A stretch of DNA of 64,000 nucleotides from Bacillaceae bacterium IKA-2 (lineage in GTDB: Bacteria; Bacillota; Bacilli; Bacillales; Anaerobacillaceae), in the NCBI GenBank assembly GCA_031761875.1, contig CP134492.1, positions 1,302,001 through 1,366,000 of the forward strand. Direction: 5' to 3'. Shown here one piece after another: positions 33,014 to 49,388 of the stretch. The translations under genes and the position numbers were made by a program. The notes below the pieces were generated by a model. It worked only from the letters and a program-made list of their open reading frames with translations. It searched no databases and had not been told where the DNA came from. Position 1 is the first letter of the stretch. Each line of letters begins with the position of its first letter.

Positions 33014-33745
33014 ATGAGCGATCAAAGTATGAACCTCCTTGATCACTTAGATGAATTTAGAAAACGAATCATGATTATTTTAGCGGCATTTATCGTATTT
33101 TTTATTGCTAGCTTTATTTTCGTAAGAGATATTTATGATTGGTTAGTAAAGGACTTGGAGATGCAACTAACTGTCCTTGGGCCAATGGAAATTATTTATG
33201 TTTATTTAATGTTAGCCGGAGTCGTTGCGATTGGCTTAACAATACCAATTATTATTTTCCAAATTTGGTTATTTGTGAAACCAGCATTGACGAAGCGTGA
33301 ACAAGCGTTATCACTAGCTTATATCCCTGCTTCATTGCTGTTATTTATTACTGGATTGTCATTTGGCTATTTTATCGTCTTACCCCTAGTCTTAAACTTT
33401 TTATTTGGTTTAGGTATAGACATGTTCACAATAATGTTCACAACAGAGAAATATTTTAGCTTTGTACTTCGGATGACGATTCCATTTAGTATCCTATTTG
33501 AAATGCCTTTAGTTGTTATGTTTTTAACAAGTCTAGGAATAGTAACACCTATAGGAATGCGTAAAAATCGCAAGTATGCATTTTTTACAATTGTAGTTAT
33601 ATCTGTCTTGATTTCACCACCTGATTTTATTTCTGATGTATTAGTAATTATTCCTTTACTTTTCTTATATGAAGTGAGCATTATTTTATCGGGATTTGTT
33701 TATCGGAAAAAAATAAAGCGCGAGCGCGAGCAAGAAAAAGAATAG
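33014..33745 (+). CDS. tatC: Sec-independent translocase TatC
   Basis: This integral membrane subunit recognises twin-arginine signal peptides. Six membrane spans are evident. The N-terminal LLDHLDEFRKRI motif and the periplasmic-loop FGYFIVLPLVLNFLF segment with its conserved proline are typical. Length (243) is usual. GGAGATGGGTGTGG precedes the ATG. It forms with TatA a minimal TatAC system and is followed by a terminator and then the nap operon. The basic tail KKIKREREQEKE is cytoplasmic. Confidence 0.95.
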   Translation: MSDQSMNLLDHLDEFRKRIMIILAAFIVFFIASFIFVRDIYDWLVKDLEMQLTVLGPMEIIYVYLMLAGVVAIGLTIPIIIFQIWLFVKPALTKREQALSLAYIPASLLLFITGLSFGYFIVLPLVLNFLFGLGIDMFTIMFTTEKYFSFVLRMTIPFSILFEMPLVVMFLTSLGIVTPIGMRKNRKYAFFTIVVISVLISPPDFISDVLVIIPLLFLYEVSIILSGFVYRKKIKREREQEKE

Positions 33746-33751
33746 TGAGAT

Positions 33752-33786
33752 AACAGCTTAACAGTTAGTGTTAAGCTGTTTTTTTT
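33752..33786 (+). terminator. Terminator of tatC
   Basis: AACAGCTTAACA (33752-33763) pairs exactly with TGTTAAGCTGTT (33769-33780), followed by a T-run. Confidence 0.85.
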
Positions 33787-33884
33787 GCATTTAAGCACAA
33801 GTAATTTTAATAATTTATGTAGCATTTAATTTTTTAACTACTAGCATTTGTTAAAAAAAAGTGCTATTCATTTTTCTGTCATCA

Positions 33885-33938
33885 GAAATGTGATTATCAT
33901 CACATTTCTAAATTGTAACAAAGGTTACAATAAGGTTA
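33885..33938 (+). promoter_or_regulatory. Fnr-activated promoter of the nap operon
   Basis: TGTGATTATCATCACA (33889-33904) is a perfect Bacillus Fnr/CRP-type box (TGTGA-N6-TCACA). It sits in a longer dyad AGAAATG…CATTTCT. A -10 hexamer TACAAT lies at 33926-33931. A start seven bases later, at 33938, puts the Fnr box centre at -41.5, the class II activator position. A second palindrome, ATTGTAAC…GTTACAAT (33912-33931), overlaps the -10 region and could bind another regulator. Confidence 0.8.
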
Positions 33939-33994
33939 ATAAAGTTATATGTTTAGTGTTTTTAAAGTGAATTCAGTAGGAGTGGGGTTTTAAT

Positions 33995-34591
33995 ATGAAG
34001 GGTCTCGGTTTTCTCCGAACAGTGATCGGCGGAATAGCAGCATATGAATTACTCAAAATAATGAAAGCTGGAAGCAAGGAAGTATTAAGGCCACCTGGAG
34101 CTTGTGATGAAGATGAATTCCTCGCATTATGTATACGGTGTGGAAAATGTAATCAAGCATGTCCCTATGAAGCTATTAATATGGGAACAAGCAGCCTAGG
34201 CTTAGGGCTTGGAACACCGTATTTAGATGCCAGAGATAATCCATGCTGGCTGTGTGAAGATTTCCCATGTGTAGAAGCGTGTCCTACGACGGCACTAAGT
34301 GGTATTGAAAAACGCACTGATGTAGATATGGGTGTTGCTATCATTAATAAAGACGCTTGTATCGCCTATCAAGGAATCCGTTGTGAGGTTTGCTACCGAG
34401 AGTGTCCACTTATGGATGAGGCAATTAAACTAGATATTTACTTAAAACCTGGCGATGAAATTCATGCTATTTTTGGACCAGTTATTGATCCCGAAAAATG
34501 TGTAGGTTGTGGAATTTGTGAACATAAGTGTGTTGTCGATAATCCTGTTGCTATCAAAGTCGAGCCTCGTAAAGAAGTTGGTCTACTATGA
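33995..34591 (+). CDS. napG: NapG-like four-cluster ferredoxin
   Basis: This iron-sulfur protein carries electrons from the membrane quinol oxidase NapH towards nitrate reductase. Four [4Fe-4S] clusters are indicated by CIRCGKCNQACP, CWLCEDFPCVEACP, CIAYQGIRCEVCYRECP and CVGCGICEHKCV. The N-terminus has a hydrophobic stretch but no twin-arginine motif, unlike proteobacterial NapG, so its location is uncertain. The start at 33995 is preceded by AGGAGTGGGG. It overlaps napH by 4 bases (ATGA), showing translational coupling. Confidence 0.9.
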   Translation: MKGLGFLRTVIGGIAAYELLKIMKAGSKEVLRPPGACDEDEFLALCIRCGKCNQACPYEAINMGTSSLGLGLGTPYLDARDNPCWLCEDFPCVEACPTTALSGIEKRTDVDMGVAIINKDACIAYQGIRCEVCYRECPLMDEAIKLDIYLKPGDEIHAIFGPVIDPEKCVGCGICEHKCVVDNPVAIKVEPRKEVGLL

Positions 34592-35427
34592 AAAAATGGA
34601 TGATTGCTAGAAAGTCTGTTCAATTTTTGATTATTCTACTATTTTTGTCCCCACTATTTTTAGTCGATGTTGCTGGAACTAACTTTTTTTATGGCTCACT
34701 ATCATCTTCAGAATTTTTTGGAATTCAACTTTCAGACCCATTGGGAGCACTAGGCGTAACAATAGCTTCAAAGCAATTTGTTTGGGGATATATTGGTTCT
34801 GCATCAATTGTTTTCTTTATTTATTTGCTAATCAGCGGGAGAGTATTTTGTAGTTGGGTTTGTCCAGTGAACACTCTTTTGGAACTGACCGATTCCGTAA
34901 GAAAGCGCTTTAAAAATCTGCCTGATATCCAGTTTAAGTTAAATACAAAGATCCATTTAGCAGTTTTAGTTCTAGTACTCTCGTTTTTTATTGGCGTACC
35001 TATCTTTGAAATTATTTCTCCGATTGGTAATACGATAAGAAATTTATTATTTGTCTGGGGGATTGGGGCTTTTATCATATTAGCAATTGTTTTATTTGAT
35101 TTTTTTGTTTCGAAAAGAGGCTGGTGCAGATACTTTTGTCCAGTTGGAGGTTTTTATTCAAGCATTGGTAAAGCAGGACAATTAAGAGTCAAGATTGATG
35201 ATGAAAAATGCGTCAGCTGTATGCAGTGTAAAAAAGTCTGCTTTTCGCATCCATCTATTTTAGATCCTGCAATTAATGGAGAGAAATCCTTTGTAGCATC
35301 AGGTGATTGTAGCTTATGTGGCGCTTGCATTGATGCATGTAGTCACGAAGCTTTATCAATAGGTCTTAGGCCGTATATTCAACGAGATAAACACATTCAA
35401 ATTCCGAATGAGGGGGAAAATATGTAA
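34588..35427 (+). CDS. napH: NapH-like membrane quinol oxidase / polyferredoxin
   Basis: This 279-residue integral membrane protein probably oxidises menaquinol and passes electrons to NapG. Four membrane helices are visible (about residues 10-28, 72-88, 113-132 and 145-165). The cytoplasmic [15 protein letters not shown] and [12 protein letters not shown] motifs are family signatures, and two [4Fe-4S] clusters follow ([23 protein letters not shown]). With no napC in the operon, NapGH is the likely sole quinol route, as in Wolinella-type systems. Its stop overlaps the napA start (TAATG). Confidence 0.92.
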
Positions 35428-37991
35428 TGGAATTAACACGAAGAAGCTTACTTAAGGCTGCAGCAATTTCATCAGCAATGATCGCAGCGGGGTGTACCAA
35501 AAAAGCGTCACCAGAACCAATAGAACCTGAACAAGATCCTGTTGAAGTAGAGGCTTTATCAATTGAACCGGATGCTTGGAAAACAACTGTTTGTCGCTAT
35601 TGTGGAACAGGTTGTGGAGTTTTAGTCGGAGTTAAGGATCAAAAAGTAATTGCTGTAAAAGGAGATCCAGATAATCGTTCCAGCAGAGGTCTAAACTGCA
35701 TTAAAGGTTATTATTTAGGAAAAGTTTTATTCGGTGAAGACCGCCTAACTAAGCCGTTAATTCGTGAAGATAACTCGAAAAAAGGAACAATGGACGGCTT
35801 CCGTGAAGCGTCATGGGATGAAGCCCTTGACTTAGTTGCAAATAAAATTAGAGAAAACCATGATAAAGATCCGAATTCAGTAGCATTTTGGGGTTCAGGT
35901 CAACAAACGATCCATGAAGGCTACGCTTCAGTAAAACTTTGGAAAGTTGGCTTACAAAGCAATAATATAGATCCCAATGCAAGACTTTGTATGGCGAGTG
36001 CAGTAGCCGGGTTCATGACAACGTTTCAGTCAGACGAACCAATGGGTTGTTATGATGATTTAGATGAGGCAGATGTGTTCGTTACTTGGGGAGCAAACAT
36101 GGCAGAAATGCACCCAGTATTATATTCACGCTTAACGGCAAGAAAGCTTTCTGATCCTAATGTAAAACATTATGATTTAACAACGTATCATACACGTACT
36201 TCAGAAACTGCAGATAGCGTTATGGTATTTAGACCACAAACAGATTTAGCGATTGCTAACTGTATTGTTAACTATTTACTAGAAACAGACTCATATGATC
36301 AGCAGTTTGTTGATGAGCATTGTCAATTTAAGGCTGGAGAAGAGGACTTAGGTCATTCAATAAACGATGATTATGATCAGACTGAAAAGGGTCAAAAGTC
36401 CGGTGATGCTTGGTCAATCACGTTTGACGAGTTTAAAGAAATGGTTTCAAAATACACATTTGAATATGTTTCTGAATTATCAGGTGTCCCAGCCGCCGAT
36501 CTTGAAACTTTAGCAAAGGAGTTTGCTGATCCTAATAAGAGAATTATGTCAACATGGACAATGGGGGTCAATCAACATACTCGTGGGACATGGATGAACA
36601 ATTTAATTTATGATATTCATTTACTTTCAGGGAAAATTAGTCAGCCGGGAAGCGGACCATTTTCATTAACAGGTCAGCCTAGTGCTTGTGGAACTGCTCG
36701 TGAAGTTGGCGTATTTTCACACCGATTACCTGCAGACTTAGTAGTAACTAATCCAGAGCACCGTCGCTTTAGTGAGATGATTTGGAACTTACCCGAAGGT
36801 TATTTAGATGCGATTGAAAAACCTGGTCTTCATACTATGGCGATGTTCAGACAGCTTGGAAATGGAAATGTAAAATTCCTTTGGAGTATGTCTAACAACT
36901 GGGCCCAAACGTTACCAAAAACAAATCGCTTTCGTGGAATTGATACTGATGGTAAAGGTGTGATTGACGGATTTATCGTTGTTTCTGAAGTTTACCCAAC
37001 ACGTTCAACAGAAATGGCAAATGTTGTCTTTCCAGCAGCAATGTGGGTAGAGCGTGAAGGCATGTTTGGTAATGCTGAACGTCGTAACGCCATTTTTGAA
37101 AAGTGTCAAGAACCGCCCGGAGAAGCTAAATGGGATATTTGGGCAATGGTTCAAGTAGCAAAGCGTGTCCTTGATGGCAAAAAAATTGGCGACAAAGATT
37201 CTTTTGATGTTGTCTTCGGTAAATACGGCCCTGATATTTGGGATTATGAGAAAAATGATCTTATTGATGACCATGAAGTATGTGTAAGGCTATGGGAAGA
37301 ATATCGCGAGTTTAGTACACCACACTTAAATGAAAATCCAGCTATTCGTGAGCTCGGTCATAAATTAAAGACAAGTGCGAAAGAATTAGCGCCTTACGAT
37401 GAGTATTTAAAGCAACATGGTATGCGTTGGCCAGTTCGTGAAGTAAATGGTGAATGGATGGAAACCAAATGGCGTTATGCCCATGGTAAGCAAGAAGACG
37501 GCTATGATCAAATCGGTGTTGAAACGTTTGGTGAAGTAGGTCGATATAAAAATCTTGATTTTTATAAATCAAATGATCATAAACCAACAGTTTTCTTTAG
37601 ACCATTTGAAGATGCTCCTGAAATACCAGATGAAGAGTATCCGATCTGGTTATGCACAGGACGTGTTCTCGAACACTGGCACAGTGGCTCAATGACGCGA
37701 CGTGTTCCTGAGTTACATCGCGCTGTACCAGAAGCGTTATGTGAAATCCACCCGGATGATGCTGCTGCGATTGGAATTCAAGATAAAGATTGGGTATACG
37801 TTGAGTCTCGTCGCGGAAAAACAAAAGTAAAAGCAACTACAACTGGCCGCGGCAAGCCACCAAAAGGGTTAGTATTTGTTCCGTTCTTTGCTGAAGAGGT
37901 AATGATTAACGATACGACGTTGGACGCATATTGTCCAATTTCAAAACAACCGGACTATAAAAAATGTGCTGTCAAAGTATATAAGGCATAG
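35427..37991 (+). CDS. napA: Periplasmic-type nitrate reductase catalytic subunit NapA
   Basis: This bis-MGD molybdoenzyme reduces nitrate to nitrite outside the membrane. The N-terminal TRRSLLK is a twin-arginine signal, followed by a hydrophobic stretch and AAGC (C23), a lipobox-like end, so the enzyme may be a lipoprotein. The [4Fe-4S] ligands are C56, C59, C63 and C91. The molybdenum ligand is probably C189 in [12 protein letters not shown]. The MGD-binding C-terminal domain ([53 protein letters not shown]) is complete. Length (854) fits NapA. Formate dehydrogenase or another DMSO-reductase member is excluded mainly by the nap neighbours and the RVLEHWH motif. Confidence 0.92.
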
Positions 37992-38003
37992 GGAGGAATG
38001 AAG

Positions 38004-38456
38004 ATGAAAAAATCAAATTATTTTTTATTTGCAGCTGCTATAGCGATATTAATCTTTGCCTCTGTCATTGGTGTATCTTTGATTAGCGACTCATCAAAGG
38101 AAACAGCGCAACCAAAACAAGAGAAAGAACAAGAACCAAAGCAGGAACAACCAGCAACAGCAATAAACTTGCCACAGTTAACTGAAGAGCGTGCAGATGC
38201 AGCAACGATGGGTTTAATCTCGGCACCTACATTACAACCAGTTGACCATCTCGGCAGATGGAACCCACAACTTGGTAAAGATAGTTGTTTAATGTGTCAT
38301 CAAGATTCAGCAGCAACTGGAGCAAGAGAAATACCAATAGATCATTTCGTAGATGAAGATCGAAGCGAAGGAATTTTCGGACCAAGAAATCAGTGTATAA
38401 CGTGTCATGGTCTTGATTCAGGCGATACCAAGCCAGCATTTAATAGAGAAAACTAA
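38004..38456 (+). CDS. napB: NapB-like diheme cytochrome c subunit
   Basis: This is the electron-transfer partner of NapA. An N-terminal hydrophobic helix (residues ~5-30) without a clear cleavage site probably anchors it to the membrane. A charged Gln/Glu/Lys linker follows, then a small domain with two heme motifs, CLMCH and CITCH, as in NapB. The distal histidine ligand regions (VDHLG, IDHF) are present. I chose the ATG at 38004, 6 bases after GGAGGA. Cytochrome c maturation genes must lie elsewhere. Confidence 0.9.
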   Translation: MKKSNYFLFAAAIAILIFASVIGVSLISDSSKETAQPKQEKEQEPKQEQPATAINLPQLTEERADAATMGLISAPTLQPVDHLGRWNPQLGKDSCLMCHQDSAATGAREIPIDHFVDEDRSEGIFGPRNQCITCHGLDSGDTKPAFNREN

Positions 38457-38479
38457 ATTTTCAACAATGGAGGTGTATG

Positions 38480-38749
38480 ATGGTTATTTCAGGATTTATG
38501 CTAATTACAGTAAAAGGCAAAACGGATTTAGCAATTGAACAACTACAGAAACTTCCAGGTGTCGAAGTTCATCTTGTTGAGCAAGGCGTTAAAGTGGTCT
38601 TAACTCTAGAGGCTCCTTCTGTTGATGAAAGTTATCGTATTGGTGAGGCGTTCAAAGAGATTGATGGAATTGTTTCGATCTGTCTTGCTTACACTCACTT
38701 TGAAGATGATCCAGCAATGGAACATAAAAGAGTTGTGATTAAGCAATGA
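38480..38749 (+). CDS. napD: NapD-like nitrate reductase maturation chaperone
   Basis: This 89-residue ferredoxin-fold chaperone binds the twin-arginine signal of NapA in the cytoplasm and delays export until the cofactor is loaded. The pattern ISGFMLITVKGKTDLAIEQL, LPGVEVH and GVKVVLTLEA is typical of NapD. I chose the second of two adjacent ATGs (38480), 5 bases from GGAGGT. Its stop overlaps the start of the next gene by ATGA. Confidence 0.88.
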   Translation: MVISGFMLITVKGKTDLAIEQLQKLPGVEVHLVEQGVKVVLTLEAPSVDESYRIGEAFKEIDGIVSICLAYTHFEDDPAMEHKRVVIKQ

Positions 38750-39303
38750 TAGAAAAATTGAACCGTAGAGAATATCTTAAGGAGAATTTCCGTTCTTCCT
38801 TTCAGTTTCTAGGGTCAATCATTGGAGCTTCCCTTGAGCAAGAACGAAATTTTATCCGTCCACCAGGTGCAGGAGATGAACTAGGATTTCTTACCTCATG
38901 TACTCGCTGTGGAGTTTGTGCAGAAGTATGTCCTCACGATACAATAAGTCTTTTTTCAGCGGATTATGGAGCAAAGTTAGCTGGGACACCTTTTATCAAC
39001 CCAAATGAAGTTCCTTGTACATTTTGTAATAAGTGTATTACTCATTGCCCTACAGGAGCTTTAGAGGAAATTGGTCCAAACGAGAAACTAGGGATGGCTG
39101 AAGTTGTTGAATTTAACTGTTTAGCTTTTAAGGGGACAATGTGTGACTATTGTGTTAGAGCTTGTCCTTTAGGAACTGACGCATTAACGCTTGAAGATGG
39201 AAAACCAAAAGTAATTGAAGCAAATTGCAACGGTTGTGGTCTCTGCGTTAGTGCTTGTATTCAAACATTTAAAGGCATTTACGTAAAAATTATAGAAGCA
39301 TAA
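38746..39303 (+). CDS. napF: NapF-like ferredoxin protein
   Basis: This 185-residue protein has [4Fe-4S] motifs CTRCGVCAEVCP, CTFCNKCITHCP, CDYCVRACP and CNGCGLCVSACI. It lacks a signal peptide and membrane helix, so it is cytoplasmic. NapF proteins help assemble iron-sulfur clusters into NapA before export. It resembles the NapG encoded at the front of the operon (both have RPPGA…DE followed by the first cluster), suggesting duplication, so a NapG-like redox role is the alternative. It is the last gene of the operon; a terminator follows. Confidence 0.82.
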   Translation: MIEKLNRREYLKENFRSSFQFLGSIIGASLEQERNFIRPPGAGDELGFLTSCTRCGVCAEVCPHDTISLFSADYGAKLAGTPFINPNEVPCTFCNKCITHCPTGALEEIGPNEKLGMAEVVEFNCLAFKGTMCDYCVRACPLGTDALTLEDGKPKVIEANCNGCGLCVSACIQTFKGIYVKIIEA

Positions 39304-44991: not shown

Positions 44992-46248
44992 ATGAAACAA
45001 AAAAATCGATGGCTAATCGCATTATCAGCAGTAGCAATCCATTTATCTATTGGTTCAGCTTATGCATATAGTGTATTCGTTAATCCATTAACTGAAAAAC
45101 TAGGTTGGGAAAGAGCAGAGGTTTCTTTTGCTTTTACGATCGCAATTTTTTGCTTAGGAATGTCAGCAGCTTTTTTCGGACCATTTGTTGAAAAATATGG
45201 TCCTAGGAAGTCCGCGTTTTTAGCAGCTAGCTTTTTTGCTACTGGAATTATCGGAGCTGGTTTTGCTGTATCTTTGGAATCATTGCCGCTGTTTTATTTA
45301 ACATATGGGTTATTAAGCGGTATGGGTCTTGGTTTAGGATATATTTCTCCAGTATCTACATTAGTAAAATGGTTTCCAGACCGTCGGGGTCTAGCAACAG
45401 GTATGGCCGTATTTGGCTTTGGTGCTGGTGCTTTAATTGCCAGTCCAATTGCGGCAAGACTTATTACTGAGATAGGAATTCCTAGTACTTTCTTTACTTT
45501 AGGAGTTACGTACTTGGTGTTAATGTCGTTGGGTGCTTCTTATATTGCCAAACCACCTCAAGGCTGGTTACCAAAAGGAATGACTGAGGCATCAGGAGCA
45601 AAAAAGAAAATAACAGAAGATTTAGCTCAATTAACAGGTAAAGAAGCAATCAAAACAAAACGTTTCTGGTTACTATGGGTAATGATGTTCATTAATATCT
45701 CTACAGGGTTAATGATCATTTCTGTTGCATCTCCAATGGCCCAAGAAAAAGTTGGACTGACAGCCATCGCAGCAGCAAGTATGGTAGGAATTATGGGTCT
45801 ATTTAATGGTGCAGGTCGAATTGGTTGGGCGACACTCTCTGACGTCATAGGAAGAACGAGAATTTATATGATCTTTTTCTCGATTCAATTAGTTGCATTT
45901 TTAATATTACCAAATGTTACAAACGTACTTTTATTTCAAATATTAATATTCATCGTGTTAACGATATATGGTGGAGCATTCGCCGTACTTCCTGCTTTTA
46001 TTGGTGATATATTTGGAACAAAGCAACTTGGAGCGATTCATGGTTTATTATTAACATCATGGTCAATGGCGGGAGTTGTAGGACCCCTCTTAGTTGCGTA
46101 TATTCGCGAAACTACAAATAGCTATGATGCAACGTTTTACGTTTTTGCGGTATTTTTAATTGTTGCCCTCTTTACTTCAATTTTAATTGCACGTGATATA
46201 AAAATGATAAGAGTTGGTCAAAAAGAAGCATTTAAAAAAGTAAGCTAA
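44992..46248 (+). CDS. OFA-family MFS transporter (oxalate/formate antiporter type)
   Basis: This 418-residue, 12-helix major facilitator is of the oxalate:formate antiporter family. It opens with RWLIALSAVAIHLSIGSAYAYSVF, the family's typical first helix, and contains GPFVEKYGPRKS and GLGLGYISPVSTLVKWFPDRRGLATGMAV. GAGGAG precedes the ATG at 44992. It is convergent with formate dehydrogenase, and the two are separated by a shared terminator. Formate or a related monocarboxylate is the likely substrate by context; homologues with other substrates exist. Confidence 0.88.
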   Translation: MKQKNRWLIALSAVAIHLSIGSAYAYSVFVNPLTEKLGWERAEVSFAFTIAIFCLGMSAAFFGPFVEKYGPRKSAFLAASFFATGIIGAGFAVSLESLPLFYLTYGLLSGMGLGLGYISPVSTLVKWFPDRRGLATGMAVFGFGAGALIASPIAARLITEIGIPSTFFTLGVTYLVLMSLGASYIAKPPQGWLPKGMTEASGAKKKITEDLAQLTGKEAIKTKRFWLLWVMMFINISTGLMIISVASPMAQEKVGLTAIAAASMVGIMGLFNGAGRIGWATLSDVIGRTRIYMIFFSIQLVAFLILPNVTNVLLFQILIFIVLTIYGGAFAVLPAFIGDIFGTKQLGAIHGLLLTSWSMAGVVGPLLVAYIRETTNSYDATFYVFAVFLIVALFTSILIARDIKMIRVGQKEAFKKVS

Positions 46249-46292: not shown

Positions 46293-48356
46293 TTATGAGA
46301 GTTTTGATATTTTTACAGCACAAGCTTTATATTCAGCTGTTCCTGAAATAGGATCAAATTCATCAATCGTTAATGCATTCGTTGGCACGTCAGCCCAGTG
46401 AAAACTCATAAAAACATCACCTTTTTGCATTTTGTTGCAAATCTTAGCTTTAACTTTAACTTTTCCACGTCTAGAGGCAACCTCTACATATTCACCATCT
46501 TCAATATTAAGATTTGCGGCGTCATCTGCGTGCATATCTGCTGTTTCCTCTGTTTGTTTAAGCTTAATATTAGGAGGATAATAAACGGTTTGTGAATTAG
46601 TATTGTATTGTTCATAACGTCTACCTGTCGTTAATGTGAGCGGATATTCCTCGTCAGTTGGCTCAGCCGGAAGAGAGAAATCAACAGGAACGAATTTCGA
46701 CTTTGCGGTTAACTCTCGGCCTTCGTGGAATCTTTCGTGTAACAAGAAAGTCCCTGGGTGATCGACAGTTGGGCAAGGATAATGTATTGCACCTTCGTTG
46801 TCAAATCGCTGATACGTCATGCCGCCAAACAGATTTGGGACTAAAGTTCGTACTTCATTCCAAATCTCTTCACTTGAGTTGTAATTCATTTGATAACCCA
46901 TTAATGTTGCTAACTCAGAAAGGATTTGCCAATCATCCTTTGTATTAGGATGAGCTTTTACGCCTTGTCTAGTTCTTTGAACGCGACGGTCAGCATTCGT
47001 GTAAGTTCCGTCAACTTCCGCCCAAGACCTAGCCGGTAAAACCACATCAGCAATTTCGGCTGTTTCATGTAAAAATAAATCTTGAACAATTAATAAGTCA
47101 ACATTTTCTATAGCAGACTTTGTGTGATGCATGTTTACGTCAGCAAGAACTGGATTCTCACCGATAATATAGAGGGCTTTCATTTTTCCTTCTGACATTT
47201 TTTCGATCATTCTAGTTTGGGTATGGCCAATTTCAGCTGGGATTTTCACTCCCCAAGCATCTTCAAAAATCTTCCTATCAGCTTCATTAATAACTTTTAA
47301 GGCACCTGCTAATTGGTTAGGTAAGCAGCCCATGTCGCCAGCACCTTGAACGTTATTTTGACCGCGAAGTGGCATAATGCCTGTTCCTTCTTTACCAATA
47401 TTACCAGTTAGCAAGGCAATGTTGGCAATGTCAAAAACATTATTGACACCGAAATGGTGTTCGGTAATCCCTAATGTATAAGCGATCATACCACGATCGG
47501 CACTACCATAGGCTCTAGCTACTTCGCGAATGTCATCAGCAGAAACGCCAGTAATAGTAGCTGCATATTCAGGAGTATAAGTTCGAACCTTTTCTTTTAA
47601 CTCTTCAATTCCTTCCGTAACATTCTCAATATATTGTTTATCATAAAGTTCTTCATTAATAATGACGTGGATCATGGAGTTGAGGAGGGCGATATCACTA
47701 CCAATTTTGAGTTGTAAGTGTTTTTCTGCAGATTTTGTCATATCAATTTTTCTTGGGTCAATGACAAAAAGGCGAACGCCATTTTTAACTGCTTTTTTAA
47801 TACGATTAGCAATAATTGGGTGAGCAACTGACGTATTGGAGCCAATTAATAGCAATACCTCAGCTTTGTCAAAATCTTCGTAACGGTTTGTAGGTGCACC
47901 ACTTCCACCAAATATAGTTGCCAGACCGGCAACGCTAGGAGCGTGTCAAGTTCGGTTACAACCGTCGATGTTATTCGTTCCTAATACTGCCCGAGCGAAC
48001 TTTTGTGTAACATAGTTTGTTTCATTTGTTGCCCTTGCACAAGCGAAGATTGACATACTTTCTGGACCAAATTCTTGTTTTATTTTTGTGAGTTTCTCAG
48101 CAATGAAAGTAAATGCTTCTTTCCATGATACGGGCTCGAGCTTACCATGCTTTCTTAACAACGGAGAAGATAATCTTTCTTGGGCATGAACATAATTATA
48201 AGCGAAAGATCCTTTTATACAGGTTTGACCCATATTTACAGAAGATTCTTTGTCTCCTCTGACTTTGACAATTTTATTATCTGTTACTTCGACAATTAAG
48301 CCACAACCAACGCCACAGAAACTACAGATCATTTTTACTTCTTGAGTATTTTCCAT
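46293..48356 (-). CDS. fdhA: Selenocysteine-containing formate dehydrogenase catalytic subunit
   Basis: This Mo/W-bis-MGD enzyme oxidises formate to CO2. The frame is interrupted by one in-frame TGA at 47946-47948, which reads as selenocysteine 137. Around it the protein continues as NIDGCNRT-U-HAPSVAGLATIFGGSG, matching the active-site sequence of selenoprotein FdhF enzymes (…U-HGPSVAGL…). C11, C14, C18 and C46 bind a [4Fe-4S] cluster. Total length is 687 with Sec, close to FdhF, and no twin-arginine signal is present, so it is cytoplasmic. I chose the ATG at 48356, 8 bases after GAGGAG. Full C-terminal MGD domain (LTTGRRYEQYNTNSQT) follows. The two visible frames are one gene. Confidence 0.93.
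47908..47948 (-). promoter_or_regulatory. SECIS element of fdhA (selenocysteine insertion)
   Basis: Twelve bases after the TGA, the coding strand forms GUUGCC-GGUCU-GGCAAC, a 6-bp perfect stem (47928-47933 with 47917-47922) with loop GGUCU. The E. coli fdhF SECIS, as I recall it, has the same apical GGUCU. Position and loop are what SelB needs to insert selenocysteine. Confidence 0.88.
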
Positions 48357-48533
48357 CTTTAAAACTCCTCTCAAGCTGGTATTAGATTATAAAAAACTGC
48401 GTAAATAATTGATTACCATAAATTGTATAGTTTTAATGGAAAGATAGCTTGATATAGTATAAGATTATTGTATCAGAATTTAAAGAAAAATACAGATAAA
48501 ATCATAGTAGATTGGCTGGAATGGGGTTTTTTG

Positions 48534-49388
48534 GTGGTAAATATCGGTTTAGTTTTAGAAGGCGGAGGAATGCGCGGAGTATATACTGGGGGGGTTCTAG
48601 AGTATTTTTCTGAACAAGAACTTATTTTCCCTTATATAATTGGTGTTTCAGCGGGAGCTTGTAATGGAGCATCATACATTTCAAAGCAAAGAGGCAGAAA
48701 TAAACAGGTTACCATTGACCTTATTGATCATCCAAAGTATCTTTCATATAGAAATTTCCTACGTCATAAACAGCTTTTGGGAATGGATTTTATTTTTGAT
48801 GAAATCCCAAATCAGATTGTACCGTTTGATTATCAAACCTTTGCCGAAGCAAAGCAGAAATTTTTTATAGGAACGACGGATTGTCATACTGGAAAGCCAC
48901 ATTATTTCGAAAAAAATAATCTTCCGAGTAGCGATTTTGCTACTGTATTAAAAGCTTCAAGTTCCTTACCTTTGATCGCACCAATTGTAAAATATAATGG
49001 TATGGAATTGTTGGATGGCGGAATTAGTGATCCTGTGCCAATAAAAAAATCTGTCCAAGATGGAAACACCAAAAATGTTGTTATTTTAACTAGAAATTCA
49101 GGTTATCAGAAAAAGAAACAAGCATTTCCTTGGTTAGTAAACAGACCATATAAAAACTATCCAGAGCTTGTTGAAAAAATGAAGGAAAGACATAATCACT
49201 ATAATTCTGCACTTAACTATATAGAGGAACAAGAAACGAGCGGTAATGCTTTTGTTTTTAGACCGTCAAAAACAGTAAAAGTTAGCAGACTTGAGCGAGA
49301 TAAATCGAAATTAACTGAGTTATATAACCTAGGGTTTAATGATGCAAAAGAACTTCATGAAAAGTTGGTGTCGTGGTTACAGCGATAA
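48534..49388 (+). CDS. Patatin-like phospholipase
   Basis: This 285-residue cytoplasmic acyl hydrolase of the patatin/RssA family has an oxyanion-hole motif LEGGGMRGVYTGGVL, the serine nucleophile in GVSAG, and the aspartate in LLDGGISDPVP, forming a Ser-Asp dyad. No signal peptide is seen. The GTG at 48534 is the best start, 7 bases after TGGGG; the frame extends upstream to a TTG at 48468 with no site. It is divergent from fdhA, but nothing links the two functionally. Confidence 0.9.
   Translation: MVNIGLVLEGGGMRGVYTGGVLEYFSEQELIFPYIIGVSAGACNGASYISKQRGRNKQVTIDLIDHPKYLSYRNFLRHKQLLGMDFIFDEIPNQIVPFDYQTFAEAKQKFFIGTTDCHTGKPHYFEKNNLPSSDFATVLKASSSLPLIAPIVKYNGMELLDGGISDPVPIKKSVQDGNTKNVVILTRNSGYQKKKQAFPWLVNRPYKNYPELVEKMKERHNHYNSALNYIEEQETSGNAFVFRPSKTVKVSRLERDKSKLTELYNLGFNDAKELHEKLVSWLQR

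Follow-up and report, generated by a model that had tools for sequence, protein, structure and literature searches.

A selenocysteine-containing formate dehydrogenase gene predicted in Bacillaceae bacterium IKA-2, with an in-frame UGA and a conserved SECIS-type hairpin

RESULTS

Reading frame and features of the locus

The window, i.e., the whole 64,000-nucleotide stretch of DNA that was analyzed (C1:1302001-1366000), comes from the 4.42-Mb genome of Bacillaceae bacterium IKA-2, which is assembled into one contig (C1). Two frames lie end to end on its minus strand, 47946-48374 and 46293-47855 (the latter starts at a TTG, the first in a stretch that is open right up to the TGA). The first-pass annotation had joined them through one TGA, and frame reading agrees with this: they form a single frame with that TGA as its sole interruption, and translation across it reads DGCNRT-U-HAPSVAGLATIFGG. 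Counted from an ATG that is likely the start and was also chosen by a separate script, the product has 687 residues, and the TGA falls at codon 137; the candidate site listed upstream of this ATG may act as the ribosome-binding site of the gene, referred to here as fdhA (Table 1). In the one annotated Escherichia coli K-12 record examined, the homologous fdhF is given as a single CDS.

Table 1. Positions of the predicted features of fdhA in the window
Feature	Position	Strand	Basis
fdhA/fdhF, predicted selenocysteine-containing formate dehydrogenase alpha subunit, 687 aa, Sec137	46293..48356	-	TIGR01591, Pfam domains, relatives' matches
UGA codon, predicted to be read as selenocysteine	47946..47948	-	TGA in 81/81 aligned; opposite Sec140 of E. 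coli FdhF
Predicted SECIS hairpin GUUGCC-GGUCU-GGCAAC	47917..47933	-	E. coli fdhF register, synonymous-site conservation, covariation
Ribosome-binding-site-like GAGAGGAG, upstream of ATG 48356	48365..48372	-	Sequence

Identity of the encoded enzyme

The read-through product, scored on a reading slightly longer than 687 residues, matched TIGR01591 (formate dehydrogenase alpha) with 803.5 bits against a cut-off of 666.25, residues 16-689 aligning to positions 2-672 of the 672-position model, and contained the molybdopterin oxidoreductase domains Molybdop_Fe4S4, Molybdopterin, and Molydop_binding of Pfam. The closest solved chains by sequence were 7qv7 (663 bits), 9t1s (611.3 bits), an F420 formate dehydrogenase, and 1aa6 (576.6 bits). 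The top-scoring of these, 7qv7, is the FdhF of a hydrogen-dependent CO2 reductase (HDCR) and differs from the product described here in having Cys at the Sec site (RLCHAPTVAGL). The chain in 1aa6 is E. coli formate dehydrogenase H (FdhF, b4079), which, like the window gene, has its Sec codon at the aligned site, but only 281 of 678 aligned residues are identical. Alignment with FdhF, one of the checks proposed in the first-pass annotation, puts the TGA exactly at the formate dehydrogenase Sec site, with codon 137 opposite Sec140. All eight FdhF positions examined, which we take to be Fe4S4 cluster cysteines and active-site residues, pair with the same residue in FdhA: Cys8, Cys11, Cys15, Cys42, Lys44, Sec140, His141, and Arg333 of FdhF correspond to Cys11, Cys14, Cys18, Cys46, Lys48, codon 137, His138, and Arg331.

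Conservation of the in-frame TGA

From 116 relatives in a species-representative collection, the best 80 were kept and compared together with the window gene. The codon at the Sec site is TGA in all 81 of these sequences; the two peptide search patterns omitted the Sec codon, so relatives with Cys were not barred from the 80. A first motif sufficed to call the TGA in 73 of the 80 loci, and a looser motif was used for the other 7 because they read HASS instead of HAPS. The frame continues for 541-568 residues past the TGA in the loci measured, which were 73 of the 80. A frameshift at this point in close relatives, named in the first-pass annotation as one of two observations that would speak against its reading, was found in 0 of 81 sequences, all of which hold both frame and TGA. 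One relative, G002, was omitted from the alignment (A1) because its frame (locus L021) ends early, at 650 codons, near the C terminus and not at the TGA; in its TGA and hairpin it agrees with the other relatives.

The orthologues, found in Anaerobacillus, Neobacillus, Mesobacillus, Cytobacillus, and other genera, are 61-85% identical to the window FdhA, and all 80 kept loci share the TGA and the downstream hairpin with it. Among these best 80 of 116, the named sequence closest to the window gene is that of Anaerobacillus arseniciselenatis (85%), and a FastTree phylogeny places the window gene and three Anaerobacillus rows on one branch with support of 100. Bacillaceae-type fdhA genes also occur in records titled Chryseobacterium sp. 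ISL-80 (L095, 64%) and Pseudomonas sp. ISL-84 (L135, 62%); the titles of these two records are probably wrong.

We also searched a sample of 61 genomes, comprising that of IKA-2, 6 others of its genus, and 54 of its order. Some FdhA match was present in 47 of them and a match of at least 61% identity in 11 (IKA-2 included), each of the latter interrupted by a single TGA and by no further stop; the ten relatives in this set match at 61-85% identity. Among the weaker matches listed (at most 36% identity), those bearing a stop are frames of ~1000 residues with one TGA each.

The hairpin downstream of the UGA

The first-pass annotation had described a GUUGCC-GGUCU-GGCAAC hairpin 12 bases beyond the TGA, and a position check agrees: the 17-mer stands exactly 12 bases 3' of the TGA and is unique in the window with both strands counted. 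The corresponding register of E. coli fdhF reads GTTGC-A-GGTCTG, the GGUCU being common to both. The distance from a UGA to its SECIS hairpin follows a spacing rule. The hairpin found here shows the traits of such elements, lying 12 nt past the UGA, carrying a G in its apical loop GGUCU, and covarying in its stem; a legend in a 2006 survey describes a conserved G in the SECIS apical loop (PMC1794560).

Constraint on the hairpin was assessed at synonymous sites. Its codons GCC, GGT, and CTG are invariant in 81 of 81 sequences of the codon alignment and have the lowest codon entropy among the 22 Ala, 38 Gly, and 22 Leu columns compared; for comparison, 119 conserved four-fold columns have a median of 1.78 bits, and the least variable of the other Leu columns stands at 1.75. 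The synonymous third bases of a Val and an Ala codon face each other in the stem, and across the 81 sequences they form T-A in 58, C-G in 21, and the wobble pair T-G in 2, with C-A in none. One sequence has GGCAGC as its 3' arm, leaving a G-U pair. A FastTree phylogeny built with the columns of the site removed requires a minimum of 5 substitutions at the Val base and 7 at the Ala base. Covariation on well-supported branches comprised 2 independent pairs, which were concordant in almost every one of 200 random pairings, with a median p of 0.5; with so few pairs and such a p value, the independent-pairs test proves nothing alone.

Folding and Rfam searches weigh against the hairpin. A single-sequence fold of 46 nt has an energy of -11.2 kcal/mol (z -0.43), and 63 of 200 shuffles fold equally well. 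No SECIS match was obtained within the window at the Rfam gathering threshold. SECIS prediction at the TGA, proposed in the first-pass annotation, gave a sub-threshold match: in a 151-base Rfam search, the whole of the SECIS_3 model (RF01989) aligned in the register set by the TGA, but the score of 21.5 bits (E 0.0084) is far below the cut-off of 63. SECIS_3 gave two weak matches (22 and 20.9 bits) at the fdhA loci of eight relatives and none at E up to 10 at the other six; the same search scored E. coli fdhF over the SECIS_2 cut-off (87.1 versus 70 bits). According to a 2022 review, some known SECIS elements fall outside the consensus model, and the Rfam cut-off is therefore not class-defining (PMC9312934). 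That the hairpin downstream of the fdhA UGA is real is shown by the TGA in 81/81 sequences, the invariant synonymous sites, and the covariation, not by its folding energy.

Selenocysteine machinery and other selenoprotein genes

The selA, selB, selC (tRNA-Sec), and selD genes, for which the first-pass annotation had proposed a search and whose absence it had named as counting against its reading, are all present in the genome. A tRNA-Sec with anticodon TCA (ARAGORN) lies at C1:2464097-2464188 (58.7 bits, cut-off 47), and SelA (558.9 bits), SelB (337.2 bits), and SelD (401 bits) all score over their profile cut-offs. Tallies by E value were uninformative, since ordinary tRNAs and EF-Tu kin gave tRNA-Sec and SelB matches in 61/61 relatives and 14/14 control genomes, and only scores over the family cut-offs were therefore counted. 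Counted in this way, 35 of the 61 sampled genomes have SelB and 34 have tRNA-Sec, compared with 2 and 5, respectively, of the 14 controls. The claim in the first-pass annotation that selenoproteins are uncommon in Bacillaceae is thus overstated. Each of the 11 genomes bearing fdhA at 61% identity or more has SelB over cut-off, and 10 have tRNA-Sec; G037, an assembly of ~200 contigs, has SelB and gave no tRNA-Sec over cut-off, a repeat search included. As SelB occurs in 35 of the 61 genomes and FdhA (at least 61% identity) in just 11, in many genomes the Sec system must be retained for proteins other than this FdhA.

The genome is predicted to hold at least three selenoprotein genes, namely, fdhA, selD, and an FDH-N-type gene. 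The selD gene (L014:8119-9171), starting with GTG at L014:8119, has its own in-frame TGA in TGKAG-U-GCKIGPEDL. The FDH-N-type alpha subunit (~C1:3558684-3561527, L048) reads EHQARI-U-HSSTVAGLAPS across an in-frame TGA and has the hairpin core GCCGGTCTGGC 3' of it, where SECIS_3 scores 60.1 bits against the cut-off of 63; fdhD is ~0.5 kb away. This gene resembles the window fdhA in its in-frame TGA and hairpin core but has an open frame of ~1000 residues (versus 687) and belongs to a different FDH subfamily. A further paralogue, at C1:3099092-3101134, has by eye a Cys near the Sec site ("NGRFCMSSAAGG").

A phage-type integrase gene (L012:7306-8508) lies directly downstream of tRNA-Sec, and the 3' part of the tRNA gene, from anticodon loop to CCA, is repeated with two mismatches 73 kb off (C1:2464097-2464192 and C1:2537303-2537329; L158 and L159). 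It appears that an integrative element of ~73 kb uses the tRNA-Sec gene as its attachment site. Inside this stretch are three consecutive same-strand recombinase-like genes (L012:10499-13536; Pfam Phage_integrase is shown for the first only), an arrangement resembling that of Tn554-type sets. The relative G003 has two tRNA-Sec matches 137 kb apart, perhaps reflecting a similar integration habit.

Gene neighborhood and electron partner

On one side, fdhA is flanked by a convergent MFS gene (44992-46248). As a candidate formate transporter, this gene was rejected: its oxalate/formate antiporter score is below cut-off, and its best family is that of L-lactate transporters (453 bits, cut-off 320); we therefore draw no connection to formate. 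The divergent gene on the other side (48468-49388) has a weak, below-cut-off patatin-like match. Of the eight neighboring window open reading frames compared, none is present in more than 6 of the 81 loci. Orthologous loci differ from the window in that, at 58 of 81, fdhA is immediately preceded by a large gene on the same strand, which is absent here; at the one locus checked (L106:3202-5793), it encodes an MHYT-PAS histidine kinase.

No co-directional redox subunit adjoins fdhA in the window, and searches with PF00374 and PF02906 found neither a [NiFe] nor an [FeFe] hydrogenase in the genome (in the control genomes, PF00374 matched 5/14 and PF02906 1/14). E. coli FdhF partners hydrogenase 3, and HDCR contains an [FeFe] hydrogenase; the IKA-2 genome differs from both in having no match to PF00374 or PF02906, and on this basis FdhA was rejected as a candidate formate dehydrogenase of a formate hydrogenlyase or of HDCR. 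With neither a co-directional redox subunit next to the gene nor a hydrogenase matched by these two profiles, our best guess for the electron partner is a ferredoxin-like protein.

A periplasmic nitrate reductase (nap) cluster lies on the plus strand at 33014-39303 of the window, 7-15 kb from fdhA. Its napA (1002 bits, cut-off 904), tatC, and NapH/MauN-type genes score over cut-off, NapB is recognized by Pfam (28.4 over 25.1), and napG-like and napF/G-like genes fall below cut-off. Five relatives of the genus have a frame of 857-861 residues ~10-14 kb from fdhA, which is presumably napA.

DISCUSSION

Decoding of the fdhA UGA

Both the survey and the review describe how SelB binds the SECIS hairpin and brings Sec-tRNA-Sec to the UGA (PMC9312934, PMC1794560). 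Applied to fdhA, a ribosome would arrive at UGA codon 137, the hairpin 12 nt downstream would bind SelB carrying Sec-tRNA-Sec, and Sec would be inserted at the UGA, avoiding termination; SelA would convert seryl-tRNA-Sec to its Sec form and SelD would provide the selenophosphate. In formate dehydrogenases, Sec is a ligand to the molybdopterin-bound metal. By established family knowledge, SelB binding and Sec insertion would take place at fdhA, and metal ligation by Sec, with formate oxidation or CO2 reduction, would be the expected chemistry of its product. The claim of the first-pass annotation that fdhA is a selenoprotein gene decoded through its UGA and hairpin is upheld by the sel genes, the TGA in 81/81 sequences, and the conservation of the hairpin, a combination that points to Sec insertion and not to a pseudogene, a frameshift, or a sequencing error.

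Three other accounts of the TGA were weighed. An open frame is by itself silent on which residue goes in, and the UGA might be decoded as another amino acid, such as Trp or Cys, without SelB; given the full set of sel genes, the covarying SECIS hairpin, the coincidence of the site with Sec140 of FDH-H, and SelB over cut-off in 11/11 fdhA-bearing genomes (at least 61% identity; 61 sampled), we consider such readthrough highly improbable. A formate dehydrogenase gene killed by a nonsense mutation would, in a single genome, look no different, being intact apart from one in-frame stop. Here, however, the TGA sits exactly on the FDH Sec site, long open frames follow it in the loci measured (73 of the 80), and the constraint on the hairpin together with the presence of the TGA in 81/81 sequences refutes a pseudogene, which we give hardly any credence. 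An error of sequencing or assembly, with TGT or TGC (Cys) as the true codon, could be imagined from the Cys near the site in the paralogue at C1:3099092-3101134, but the same TGA in 80 loci from separate public records and the maintained hairpin refute it and leave its likelihood next to nil.

The gene almost certainly encodes a short FdhF/FdhA-type molybdopterin formate dehydrogenase with Sec137, its UGA being decoded via SelB and the SECIS hairpin, as judged from sequence comparison.

Significance

Selenocysteine-containing FdhA is one of the commonest selenoproteins of bacteria. The 2006 survey, in which no bacterial selenoprotein was more widespread than FdhA and SelD, recorded FdhA in 67 of the 75 organisms that use Sec and already listed three selenoprotein families for Firmicutes/Bacillales (PMC1794560), and the 2022 review names FdhA first of the five most widespread families (PMC9312934). 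The window fdhA is therefore an ordinary case of a well-known type, and it leaves the understanding of Sec insertion and of formate dehydrogenases unchanged. Our literature search found no paper on Anaerobacillus formate dehydrogenase or selenocysteine, which does not prove absence from print.

A tentative picture, which we regard as possible rather than probable, is that a stand-alone Sec-FdhA is kept across Bacillaceae, often beside an MHYT-PAS histidine kinase, and that, with neither a hydrogenase nor an adjacent NAD-binding subunit, electrons from formate may pass to ferredoxin or the respiratory chain. Plain reading of the sequence picked out a genuine recoded gene in fdhA, which also provides a clean Bacillaceae case of a SECIS hairpin exposed by synonymous-site covariation. 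For annotation, fdhA is to be read as one selenoprotein, and sel-bearing Bacillaceae genomes should be checked likewise.
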